Under the pieces are notes generated by a model that saw only the letters and a program-made list of their open reading frames with translations, made no database searches and was not told the DNA's origin. A DNA stretch of 64,000 nucleotides, taken from assembly GCA_021776565.1 (NCBI GenBank), contig JAJFFQ010000020.1:1-64000 (forward strand). Direction: 5' to 3'. The position numbers were made by a program, and so were the translations under genes. Below, in pieces: positions 5,461 to 57,309 of the stretch (within the stretch, counting starts at the first letter, position 1; every line of letters starts with the position of its first letter). The stretch is from Robiginitomaculum sp. (GTDB lineage: Bacteria > Pseudomonadota > Alphaproteobacteria > Caulobacterales > Maricaulaceae).

Positions 5461-6732
5461 TTAATAACAATCGCCTTCCATGGCATTGATCCAGTCCGCA
5501 ATCAGGGCAACGCCGTCATCGTCTGCGGTCGAGCGACCCAGTTCGGGCATCATTACCGCCGGATTGGTTGAAGCCATGCGATACCAGAGAATGGATTGCT
5601 CCGCTTTGCCTGGAACAATATCAAAGCGGTAACCGCCAGTGCCTTGCCCGGCGGCGACAGGTGGTTTGCACAGCCCGGCATTGCCGCTGGGGTATGCGTG
5701 TTCCGGGCGGTCTAGATAAAGCGCCGAGGTGTCTGCCACGCCCACCGGGTTATGGCAATGGCCACAATTTATATCCAGCCAGGCCCGTGCGCGCCTGTCC
5801 AAAGATGCACTTTCATCACGCCAGTTGGCATTACGTGGGGCCGTGTTGGCGCTTTCAAAACCACTTAAATATCCAAGCCGGGCCAGATGCTCCAGTTGGT
5901 TTTCTGACCCACCGGGATAAGAATAGGTCTTGTTCAGATGACGCGGTGCCGGGCCGATGGGCTGAATGGCTTTGGTTGTGGCGTTCACCGCATGGCACCC
6001 GGCGCATTGATTAGCGTTTGGCACAACATAGATAAAGTCTTGCCCGTCGCCATTATCTTTTTGCAAATGTATGGGCAGGGCACCACCGGTGCGTTCCAGC
6101 ACAGCATCATCCTGTGCATCATTCCAGATATAGGGCAGGGCCGCCCAACCGCTCTGACGATGCACCAGAATACGCGTCTCAATCAGGCGCACGGTGTTCA
6201 GGTTCAAACCCTCACCAGCAAAATCAGCACTCATGTCATGGGTGTTGAGAAGAACGCCCGTATTACTCTTTGGGTAATAAAACGTTTTGGCAATAACGGT
6301 GCCAACCGGAAAATCCAGCGCCTGTTCTTCACGGTAAATGGCGCGTTTACCCAGGGGCATCCAAAGCACACGCAATTTGTGCGCGGCATCGGTATAAAGC
6401 GCCGAATTGAGATCATAAGGCATTGCATCCACGCCCAGTGTCAGCCTGTCATCATCGACCGTCACGATACCCCAGGCGCTCAGGTTCGGCGGATTTTCAT
6501 CCATAAATGGGCTGATTTTTGGTGTCGGCGCCGAACAGGCCGCCAGTATCAGAAGGAGTGGGACGATCAAACCCCGACACCGCAGCACCCCTATCGACCG
6601 CTCACGCGGCCACTTCCCCCGCTTGCGGGGGAAGAAAGGCAAGGCCCGGCCTTTTCCTACCCTGTTTACGGGGGAGGTGGTCTGAAAGACCGGAGGGGGA
6701 GGGTTTTTTGATGGCAAAAAGGAAAGGGTCAT
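5461..6732 (-). CDS. SO2930/HNE_0200-type diheme c-type cytochrome lipoprotein
   Basis: A 423-codon frame with two haem c sites, CAGCH at 243-247 and CGHCH at 323-327, and a lipobox LILAAC with C66. It matches the conserved family I recall as TIGR03806 (HNE_0200 family), normally found beside a beta-helix protein as here. The ATG at 6732 has a perfect AGGAGG seven bases upstream that overlaps the stop codon of the preceding gene. This marks the ancestral start. Residues about 8-48 are encoded by a palindromic repeat element, which pushes the signal peptide to residue 50. A GTG at 6588, exactly at the element edge, would give a normal 375-residue lipoprotein and may be the present start. Confidence 0.85.
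   Translation of the reverse strand: MTLSFLPSKNPPPPVFQTTSPVNRVGKGRALPFFPRKRGKWPRERSIGVLRCRGLIVPLLLILAACSAPTPKISPFMDENPPNLSAWGIVTVDDDRLTLGVDAMPYDLNSALYTDAAHKLRVLWMPLGKRAIYREEQALDFPVGTVIAKTFYYPKSNTGVLLNTHDMSADFAGEGLNLNTVRLIETRILVHRQSGWAALPYIWNDAQDDAVLERTGGALPIHLQKDNGDGQDFIYVVPNANQCAGCHAVNATTKAIQPIGPAPRHLNKTYSYPGGSENQLEHLARLGYLSGFESANTAPRNANWRDESASLDRRARAWLDINCGHCHNPVGVADTSALYLDRPEHAYPSGNAGLCKPPVAAGQGTGGYRFDIVPGKAEQSILWYRMASTNPAVMMPELGRSTADDDGVALIADWINAMEGDCY
6588..6710 (+). repeat. Palindromic repeat element, copy A (inside the cytochrome reading frame)
   Basis: A GC-rich element with successive hairpins. Hairpin 1 pairs 6613-6621 with 6626-6634 (cttcccccg/cgggggaag). Hairpin 3 pairs 6679-6683 with 6687-6691 (ggtct/agacc). 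The order and sequence match copy B at 36957-37073 along the whole length. The two copies differ at paired positions in compensating ways. It resembles the intergenic palindromes common in Caulobacterales-like genomes, but here it is translated. Confidence 0.8.
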
Positions 6733-35302: not shown

Positions 35303-38300
35303 ATGCCAAGACGCGAGGACATTTCCTCTATCCTGATTATCGGGGCGGGGCCGATTGTGATCGGTCAGGCGTGCGAGTTTGATTATTCTGGTGTGCAGGC
35401 TTGTAAGGCCCTCAAAGAAGAGGGTTATCGGGTTATACTGGTCAATTCCAACCCGGCGACAATTATGACCGACCCGGGGTTGGCTGATGCTACCTATATC
35501 GAACCAATTACCCCGCAAATGGTGGCCAGGATTATCGCCAAAGAACGCCCCGATGCCTTGTTGCCAACCATGGGCGGTCAGACGGCGCTCAACACCGCAT
35601 TGACGCTGAACAAGGATGGCACACTCAAGAAGTATGGAGTGAAGCTCATCGGGGCTGAGGCTGATGTGATCGACAAGGCCGAGGATCGCGAAAAATTTCG
35701 CGCCGCCATGAAAACCATTGGCCTGGCGACCCCGCGTTCTCATCTGGCGCACTCACTGGACGATGCCATGTTGGTGTTTGAAGACATTGGTCTGCCCACG
35801 ATTATCCGGCCTTCGTTTACGCTGGGCGGCACCGGCGGCGGTATTGCTTATAATATTCAGGAATATCGCCAGATTGTCTCCAGCGGCATAGAGGCTTCGC
35901 CGACCAATGAGGTGTTGATTGAAGAATCTGTTCTGGGCTGGAAAGAGTATGAAATGGAGGTGGTGCGCGACAATGCCGACAATTGCATCATTATTTGTTC
36001 AATCGAGAACATTGACCCCATGGGGGTACATACCGGCGATTCGATCACCGTAGCCCCGGCACTGACCCTGACCGACAAAGAATACCAGATCATGCGTAAT
36101 GCTTCCATCGCCGTATTGCGCGAGATCGGCGTGGAAACCGGTGGCTCAAACGTGCAATTTGCCATCAACCCGGTGGATGGCCACATGGTGGTGATCGAGA
36201 TGAACCCGCGAGTGTCGCGCTCTTCGGCACTGGCTTCCAAGGCCACCGGATTTCCCATCGCCAAAATTGCCGCAAAACTGGCGGTGGGCTATACGCTGGA
36301 CGAGCTGGAAAACGACATCACCCGCGCCAGCCCGGCCAGTTTCGAGCCAAGCATTGACTATGTGGTGACCAAAATTCCGCGCTTTGCCTTTGAAAAATAT
36401 CCTGGCGCAGAGCCGGTGTTGTCCACAGCGATGAAATCAGTGGGTGAGGCCATGGCCATTGGCCGCAGCTTTGCCGAATCCCTGCAAAAGGCCTTGCGCT
36501 CGCTGGAAACCGACCTGACCGGGCTGGATGAAATTGAGATCGACGGCATGGGCGAGGGCGATGACGCTCGCGCGCTGGGTGCGGCACTGGCCAAGGCAAC
36601 GCCGGATAGACTATTGGTTATTGCCCAGGCCTTTCGGATGGGTTTTAGCGTGGAAGACATTCACGCCGCCTGTCAGTATGAGCCGTTTTTTCTGCGCGAA
36701 ATCGAGGCTTTGATTGCTCAGGAAGCCCGCGTGCGTGCGCATGGTTTGCCTGACACTGCAGCAGGTTGGCGGGCGTTAAAGTCACAAGGGTTTTCCGATA
36801 TGCGGCTGGCGCATCTGGCCGACCTGAGCGAGGCGAAAGTGCGTGCTGCACGGCGCGGCCATGGTGTGCGCCCGGTTTATAAACGCATTGATACCTGCGC
36901 CGCCGAGTTCGAGGCCATCACACCCTATATGTATTCGACCTATGAGATGCCGTTCTTCCCCCCATCGACCACTTTGTGGCCACTTCCCCCGTACACGGGG
37001 GAAGAAATGGCGGCACGTCTTGTTTCCTCCCCTGCTTGCGGGGGAGGTGTCGGCAAAGCCGACGGAGGGGGCGCGCAATGCGAAGCTGATCCCTCAACGC
37101 GTAAAAAAGTCATTATTCTGGGCGGTGGGCCTAACCGGATCGGACAAGGGATCGAGTTTGACTATTGTTGTTGTCATGCGGCCTTTGCCCTGGAAGAGGC
37201 CGGTATTGAATCAATAATGGTCAATTGCAATCCAGAGACCGTTTCAACCGATTATGATACCTCAGATAGGCTGTATTTTGAGCCACTGACCGAAGAAGAT
37301 GTGTTGGAAATTTGTGCAATTGAACAATCAAAAGGCACATTACTTGGCGTGATTGTGCAATTTGGCGGGCAGACACCTTTGAAACTGGCCGAAGCACTGG
37401 AACGCGATGGCGTGACCATTTTAGGCACCTCCCGCGATGCCATTGATCTGGCCGAGGATCGCGAACGTTTTAAGGCTTTGCTGGAAGATATGGGCCTGAC
37501 CCAGCCGCCAAACGCCATTGCCAAGACCGAGGAAGAAGCCCTTGTTGCAGCACAAAAACTCGGGTTTCCCCTGGTGCTGCGCCCCTCATACGTTCTGGGT
37601 GGCCGGGCCATGGAAATTGTCTCTGGCATGGATGGCTTGCGCCGTTATGTGCGCGAGGCGGTGCAGGTGTCGGGCAAAAGCCCGCTTCTTCTGGATCGTT
37701 ATGTCAACGAAGCCATCGAGGTGGATGTGGATGCGGTTTGCGATGGCACGCGGGTCTGGGTGGCCGGTATTATGGAGCATATCGAGGAGGCCGGCGTCCA
37801 TTCGGGTGATAGTGCCTGCGCCTTGCCACCCTATACGCTAAAGCCGGATATGCTGGCGCGCCTGTCCGAGCAAACCGTGCAACTGGCCAATGCCTTGCAG
37901 GTGCGCGGTCTGATGAATGTGCAATATGCCATTCAGGGCGACATTATTTATGTGCTTGAGGTCAATCCACGGGCCTCGCGCACCGTGCCATTTGTTGCAA
38001 AAGCCATTGGCGCACCGGTGGCCGGTATTGCGGCGCGTATTATGGCCGGGGCCAAGCTGAAAGACTTTGATCTTCCTGAGATGCCAACCACCCATGTGGC
38101 GGTTAAAGAGGCGGTGTTTCCCTTTGCCCGCTTTGCCGGGGTAGACCCGGTGCTGGGGCCAGAAATGCGCTCCACCGGCGAAGTGATGGGGCTGGATACC
38201 AGTTTTGCTCGCGCCTTTGCCAAATCCCAGCTTGGTGCCGGGGTGGATTTGTCCCTGTCCGGCACAGTGTTTATCTCGGTCAAGGACAGCGATAAACCAG

Positions 38301-38650
38301 CTATGGTGGAACTCGCCGGTGATCTGGTGGCCCAGGGGTATTCTCTTATGGCTACTGGCGGCACGGCCAGTGCCATATTGGACGCAGGTATTCCAGTGCA
38401 GCGCGTTAACAAGGTTTATGAGGGTCGCCCCCATGTTGTCGACGCCATGAAAAACGGCGAAGTGCAGATTGTCTTTAACACCACGCAAGGTCAGCGCGCC
38501 CATATAGATAGTTATTCCATCCGCCGCACGGCACTGGAAATGCACATCCCGTATTTCACCACGGCCGCCGCCGCTTCGGCCACGGTGCAAGCCTTGCGCG
38601 GCCTTGCCGAAGGCGCACTCGATGTGCGTGCGCTTCAAGAATACGGGTGA
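35303..38650 (+). CDS. carB: Carbamoyl-phosphate synthase large subunit with in-frame repeat insertion
   Basis: A 1115-residue CarB with two ATP-grasp halves, an oligomerisation domain and the C-terminal MGS-like allosteric domain (ends near [18 protein letters not shown]). It makes carbamoyl phosphate for arginine and pyrimidines with CarA, encoded about 21 kb away on the other strand. The family norm is about 1070-1090 residues. The surplus is explained by residues about 552-591, encoded by a palindromic element and reading as low-complexity Pro/Gly-rich sequence. It sits just before [16 protein letters not shown], the start of the second synthetase half. The frame is preserved and all flanking motifs are intact, so the enzyme is probably functional. 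Confidence 0.97.
36957..37073 (+). repeat. Palindromic repeat element, copy B (in frame inside carB)
   Basis: Hairpin 1 pairs 36983-36991 with 36996-37004. Hairpin 2 pairs 37026-37032 with 37041-37047. Hairpin 3 pairs 37049-37054 with 37058-37063 (gtcggc-aaa-gccgac). The order and flanking words (ggccacttcccccg, gggggaggtg, ggaggggg) match copy A at 6588-6710. In hairpin 3 the two copies have different sequences that both pair. Confidence 0.85.
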
Positions 38651-56911: not shown

Positions 56912-57309
56912 GCTATCGGACAGGCAGTCACACCGTTTTTCATCACCGGTATCATATTATCTGGGTTCCCAAATACCGATACAAGGTCTTGCGCGGGGAA
57001 GTTCGTGAACGGGTACGCGATATTATCCGCCAAGTCTGTGCCGAGATGAGAGTGCGGATTATCAAGGGCATACTGTCAACAAATCACATCCATATGTTTG
57101 TAGACATACCGCCGCATATTTCGGTCAGTATGTTTGTGCAACGGGTCAAGGGAAGATCATCCCGCAAGGTGCAGCAGGAGTTTCCGGCCTTGAAAAAAAG
57201 GTATTGGGGTCGCCGGTTCTGGGCACGTGGGTATTTCTGCACCACAAGTGGTAATATCACCAATGACATTATAATGAGATACCTCGAAACCCACACAAAA
57301 TCACCGTAG
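56908..57309 (+). CDS. tnpA: IS200/IS605-family transposase TnpA (Y1 HUH)
   Basis: A 133-residue Y1 transposase. The HUH motif is H60-I-H62 in NHIHMFV, and Y125 in MRYLETH fits the catalytic tyrosine. The block SMFVQRVKGRSSRKVQQEFP is typical of IS200. It appears intact. The ribosome binding site AAGGAG is eight bases from the ATG and is held in the long hairpin. No tnpB is present. Confidence 0.93.
   Translation: MSYRTGSHTVFHHRYHIIWVPKYRYKVLRGEVRERVRDIIRQVCAEMRVRIIKGILSTNHIHMFVDIPPHISVSMFVQRVKGRSSRKVQQEFPALKKRYWGRRFWARGYFCTTSGNITNDIIMRYLETHTKSP

Follow-up and report, generated by a model that had tools for sequence, protein, structure and literature searches.

An in-frame palindromic element at the junction of the two synthetase halves of CarB in a Robiginitomaculum species

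How does a palindrome come to lie within the gene of a central enzyme, and what does the enzyme make of it? The question is raised by carB of Robiginitomaculum sp. (assembly GCA_021776565.1), which was identified by its open reading frame and by alignment at positions 35303–38650 on the plus strand of the 64,000-nucleotide stretch of contig JAJFFQ010000020.1 analysed here (the window). An initial annotation, made from the sequence alone, had described a palindromic element lying in frame at the junction of the two synthetase halves of this gene. We therefore examined the element, its other copies and the corresponding sites in related genomes.

An in-frame insert in CarB

The gene encodes a carbamoyl-phosphate synthase large subunit of 1115 amino acids; further matches to CarB listed from the rest of the genome reach only 23–25% identity. 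In an alignment with the Escherichia coli chain of 1bxr, residues 1–548 and 592–1102 pair with residues 1–548 and 550–1058, and 38 additional codons (36958–37071) fall between the counterparts of E. coli residues 548 and 550. The alignment thus places the insert directly before the second synthetase half, at the proposed junction. The 114 nucleotides inserted there, which encode approximately residues 552–590, start with CCCCCC, finish with GGGGG and form an inverted pair of 49-nucleotide units of a palindrome termed here family A. The reading frame crosses the whole insert without a stop, as the initial annotation had stated. This is in itself unremarkable, as 78% of the frames of 21 family-A units are free of stops, compared with 70% for shuffled units.

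The insert had also been described as about 40 residues long and atypical for CarB, which agrees with the 38 extra codons and with the length of the linker elsewhere. In 78 of 80 named loci the linker measures 25–38 residues; it measures 45 in one, and one was missed by the linker motif. Among 30 loci from relatives (own copy included), 6 linkers have 66–81 residues and 21 have 24–37. The motif missed the other three, namely L010, the out-of-frame copy of genome G012, and L020 and L028, the linkers of which have a normal appearance. One long match, L112 (a Sphingomonas CarB), suggested a large insertion and was rejected, as its frame encodes a normal 1110 amino acids. Over its full length, the CarB of the window is 89–90% identical to four relatives, and it is 81% identical to that of G001 across the part held by that genome. 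The first named matches listed, among which very near records may have been omitted, include those from Phenylobacterium (70%), Maricaulis (69%) and Brevundimonas (68%).

Architecture and fold of the element

The two units of the carB element are oriented outwards, minus then plus. Read along its own strand, the left unit (36959–37007, minus strand) is of the A1 type, with CGATGGGGG at its end, and it matches the family-A model R1 with 69.0 bits (E = 1e-16); the right unit (37023–37071, plus strand), of the A2 type, ends CGGAGGGGG and matches with 73.9 bits (E = 4.6e-18). A family-A unit is made up of a hairpin with a C/G-rich stem (H1), a hairpin with a variable stem that covaries among copies (H2) and a G run. 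H1 occupies 36983–37004 in the left unit and 37026–37047 in the right unit, and H2, assigned from the sequence letters and from covariation in the family, occupies 36967–36981 and 37049–37063. The element therefore has four hairpins, two per unit, rather than the three originally counted. Family A also has terminal inverted repeats (C5–6 … G5–6) that continue imperfectly inwards, and the unit types, compared by eye, differ within 9 of 13 pairs. At gathering scores, Rfam gave zero matches in the window.

Folded as a single strand, the carB element has a free energy of −69.2 kcal/mol, compared with a mean of −48.7 kcal/mol for 200 shuffled sequences (z = −5.8), none of which was equally low. When 21 units of this genome were aligned, 98.1% of the cells were paired (at most 57.8% in slid controls), and 29 cells were changed on both sides, compared with 7.3 in shuffles. 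This covariation shows that the structure of family A is maintained.

Dispersal of family A

Absence of the element from the rest of the genome is refuted by a genome-wide search, which gave 39 blastn matches and at least 68 R1 matches, carB included in both; the R1 figure is a lower bound, because the best 150 of 833 candidates were scored. The sites were surveyed in 34 fetched regions, comprising all rows from this genome listed by blastn and R1, plus the carB locus. These regions contain 75 R1 matches, 62 of them full-length, at 37 sites, a count in which a small number of sites at contig ends may have been included twice or represent truncated pairs. Pairs make up 24 of the sites, 11 arranged (−,+) and 13 (+,−), and the remainder are 12 single units and one overlapping weak pair. 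Besides carB, the sole site in the window with R1 matches at E up to 1 is 6588–6699, a second pair that runs minus then plus as in carB. Matches to R1 were obtained from 15 of the 18 genus genomes and from 30 of the 41 genomes of a family sample, in which 4 genus genomes are included.

The (+,−) pairs often sit in a longer, MITE-like element that spans about 300 bp and is bounded by TACTGTCCGGTTTAG … CTAAACCGGACAGTA or similar sequences (copies in L239–L243, L246, L251, L259, L260 and L267), some copies of which carry, besides the A units, a short hairpin resembling a second palindrome, B, described below. Of 11 examples examined, 6 have both ends, 4 have only the right end and 1 has neither. 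This longer element may be a carrier of family-A units; the pair in carB is without its ends. Nested repeats were seen as well, with a short B-like palindrome in the H1 loop of family A in L042 (1585–1655) and L059 (1464–1534).

Copies inside genes

At 5 of the 37 sites, family A lies in frame within a recognisable gene: carB, pdhB, pdhC, glyS and a DNA methylase gene. According to Pfam, the pdhB copy (residues 95–111) lies between the lipoyl and transketolase domains and the pdhC copy (residues 144–160) between the lipoyl and E3-binding domains. The glyS beta chain matches its single Pfam family in two stretches; the copy in the methylase gene is located behind the methylase domain. The other sites have shorter frames or none; family-A units flank both ends of one DUF559 open reading frame and lie at the 5′ end of the frame spanning 6588–6699. 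As bacterial genomes are mostly coding, 5 of 37 sites points to depletion within recognisable genes.

The pdhC linker between the lipoyl and E3-binding domains reads, in about ten species, as a mosaic of translated repeats, family A included (L252:2945–4282, L273–L291); the remaining species have Ala/Pro-rich or other ordinary linkers. The stretches HPELVEG and LRQAQDE in these mosaics we take to be translations of short B-like units, and PSPQPSPQGEG presumably represents a third repeat. Of the five genes, carB, glyS and pdhC were compared with empty sites.

The same sites in related genomes

Alignment with relatives revealed no unrelated linker shared among them: their CarB linkers are short without an element or hold one of two palindromes. 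Among 18 genomes of the genus, the carB linker contains family A in three (G000, which is this genome, G004 and G001) and the unrelated palindrome B in four (G017, G003, G010 and G012). It is empty in ten (G002, G005, G006, G007, G009, G011 and G013–G016), and a carB match was absent from G008. The frame is kept by six of the seven inserts; in G012, carB is in three pieces in different frames and its linker of 163 nucleotides is not a multiple of 3. The orientation of A in G000 is opposite to that in G004 and G001. A similar series was observed at glyS site 1, which holds A in G000, G004, G008 and G013 and B in G017, G010, G003, G012 (degenerate) and G011, and which is empty in eight genomes, G002 being outside coverage. 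A different picture is seen at site 2 of the glyS beta chain, after IRLVLENGVRL, where species-specific insertions of varied length, unlike the A and B palindromes, occur in G001, G003, G004, G006, G007, G008, G010, G012 and G013.

The edges of the B copies bear on how the two families are related at these sites. In carB of G012, B is flanked by A-like CCCCCCATC and GATGGGGGGG, and in G010 it adjoins a weaker A-like end on one side. In glyS of G017, G010 and G003, B is flanked by CCCCC and a G-rich A-like end, and the degenerate copy of G012 has the A-like right end alone. For carB of G003 and G017, clear A-like ends are missing around B, and the glyS copy of G011 has them on neither side; a reading in which A and B replaced each other is weakened by these copies. 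The best matches of the B copy in G010 carB, across the 18 genomes, are the carB copies of G012 and G003. In glyS of the clade of G000, holders of A and of B have in common a flank, L-DLP--DL--, that is missing from the empty alleles.

To fit the CarB tree, each of the two families must have changed at least three times among the seven holders, with 2 changes forced by well-supported branches. The GlyS tree is of poor resolution, with 5 of 15 inner branches well supported, but firmly groups G000 with G006, whereas the CarB tree does not. We read the history of the carB and glyS sites as one of insertion and replacement, plus either loss or exchange between species.

R1 counts, all lower bounds because 150 candidates were scored per genome, are 68 in G000, 23 in G004, 29 in G001, 38 in G008 and 17 in G013 among holders of A, and 6 in G017, 9 in G003, 0 in G010, 1 in G012 and 10 in G011 among holders of B. 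They separate the two groups, in which related species are not independent. We also considered a simple rule, that the occupant of a site is the commoner family of its genome. Blastn counts with one B query agreed with it in all 10 occupied genomes, but it was rejected with the B model R2, under which 8 of the 10 conform and G000 (A 68, B 74) and G004 (A 23, B 84) are exceptions.

Inversion in place was examined by comparing the carB copies of A in G000 and G004, which are 0.82 identical when one is reversed and 0.69 identical in forward orientation. Identities to 10 own-genome dimers reached at most 0.76, yet the best pair among the other own-genome dimers also reached 0.82. Downstream of the carB linker, G012 is 0.92–0.96 identical to G002 in five intervals, and in the interval adjoining the linker it is 0.85 identical to G002 and 0.91 identical to G004. 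These identities are ungapped, intervals of G012 further upstream being out of register, and they are only suggestive of recombination between species around this linker.

Predicted effect on CarB

The AlphaFold model of CarB, computed from a 32-row alignment, has a mean pLDDT of 83.2 and a pTM of 0.86. In the insert, residues 551–590 have a pLDDT of 26–31, and four further short segments fall below 50. Low values in the insert are partly expected, because, apart from the query, only 3 of the 32 rows have an insert there. With a pLDDT of about 30 in a model averaging 83, the insert most likely forms a loop that is disordered and is tolerated by the enzyme.

Origin of the insert

Taken together, we propose, with a probability of about 0.8, that the carB insert derives from a non-autonomous mobile palindrome, dispersed in this genome, one copy of which landed at the junction of the synthetase halves and is predicted to be translated as a tolerated, disordered loop. 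Family A would survive where a protein tolerates insertion; a copy would have arrived between the two halves of CarB by transposition, and its translated product would be neutral. Subsequently, A and B may have been swapped in the linker via their similar C/G-run ends, or may have been exchanged between species by recombination. More tentatively, and with less than even odds, interdomain linkers of central enzymes in this genus might be long-lived docking places at which unrelated palindrome families displace each other through similar C/G-run ends, with mobile DNA serving again and again as material for flexible linkers.

The agent of such mobility was sought among PF01797 transposases, which occur in 6 of the 18 genus genomes. 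No A or B units (R1/R2) were found in any of the nine loci around these matches, and a RAYT as the driver of A and B is unsupported, no RAYT-like gene adjoining either family in that search. By eye, the 11 (−,+) pairs display no consistent target duplication; L255 alone has TAT on both sides. The window itself contains an IS200-like Y1 transposase (56932–57291, plus strand; PF01797, 140 bits), and the frame immediately 5′ of it resembles, in our own reading, a cut-off peptidase gene.

Several alternatives were weighed. The replacement step alone is challenged by the possibility that the linker is a target that A and B entered in several independent insertions. The opposite orientations of A in G000 and in G004 and G001, the scattered distribution on the CarB tree and the lack of A-like ends around some B copies all agree with repeated insertion, which we consider possible although not the favoured course: the B copy in G010 carB is best matched by copies at the same linker, A-like ends surround B in two genes in some species, and the glyS flank shared by A and B holders of one clade is missing from empty alleles. 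It is improbable that the palindrome is useful where it lies, its RNA hairpins slowing the ribosome between the halves so that the first can fold, or its loop tuning the enzyme. The strong RNA fold, the interdomain positions in carB, pdhB and pdhC and the presence of some palindrome at the same linker in several species would fit such a role, but the linker is empty in 10 of the 17 genus genomes in which carB was matched, A differs from B in sequence, and neutral inserts would also survive best at domain junctions.

Two further explanations are less credible still than a useful role. Production of CarB as two chains, through an internal start within the element, is highly unlikely. There is an in-frame ATG preceded by a G-rich stretch at 37007, and the halves of the synthase are described as separate genes that work together in Aquifex (PMC6022934); however, the inserts of G004 and G001 encode no methionine, and the frame stays open across the element. 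Least plausible of all is an assembly artefact or a dead gene. The assembly is a draft (74 contigs), with several A copies close to contig ends, but an insert of this kind also occupies the linker in G004 and G001, two genomes independent of this one, and the identity of this CarB to its relatives is high, as given above.

Significance and comparison with known systems

On this reading, family A would add a further palindrome family, from another alphaproteobacterial group, to those translated within genes, and carB and glyS provide a multi-species series for following the gain, loss and replacement of palindromes. The repeat mosaics of the pdhC linkers suggest that mobile DNA is a possible supplier of protein linkers. 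Among the literature matches listed for carB with palindromes, for intragenic palindromes and for the sequence letters of A and B, the carB insert is undescribed.

The initial annotation likened the insert to the Rickettsia palindromic elements (RPEs). These are dispersed palindromes of about 100–150 bp that lie in frame in unrelated conserved genes (PMC3767692, PMC10969869, PMC2229807); different RPE groups are reported at one locus of orthologous genes (PMC3767692), and translation of an insert is reported for Rickettsia gmk (PMC10969869/PMC2229807). The likeness is one of behaviour: the carB element is a palindrome of 114 nucleotides, its family has at least 68 dispersed R1 units, and copies lie in frame in five unrelated genes. 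Family A differs from the RPEs in that the carB element is a G+C-rich pair of two-hairpin units and in that its host, judged by a genome of 2.9 Mb and by the relatives of its CarB, is neither Rickettsia nor Wolbachia.

Among MITEs with reading frames (ERIC/RU-1, RU-2 and Correia), family A has a counterpart in its terminal inverted repeats, but its (−,+) pairs, inspected by eye, show no consistent target duplication, and no cognate transposase was found in a search of PF01797 alone. GTAG/CGTC REPs, according to a 2013 study, form inverted dimers that are mainly intergenic and in some cases intragenic, with different REPs at about one recB site in two Xanthomonas (PMC3733652). Family A likewise forms inverted dimers, at the 24 paired sites. 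REPs, however, are palindromes of 20–40 bp with a GTAG/CGTC end tag, whereas the family-A unit has 49 nucleotides, two stems and no such tag, and GTAG REPs associate with RAYTs, whereas none of the nine PF01797 loci contains an A or B unit. By analogy, then, family A appears to behave like the RPEs and the intragenic REPs. Occupation of one site by different families has already been reported for both; what is presented here is another such family, together with a series of A, B and empty alleles in two genes.
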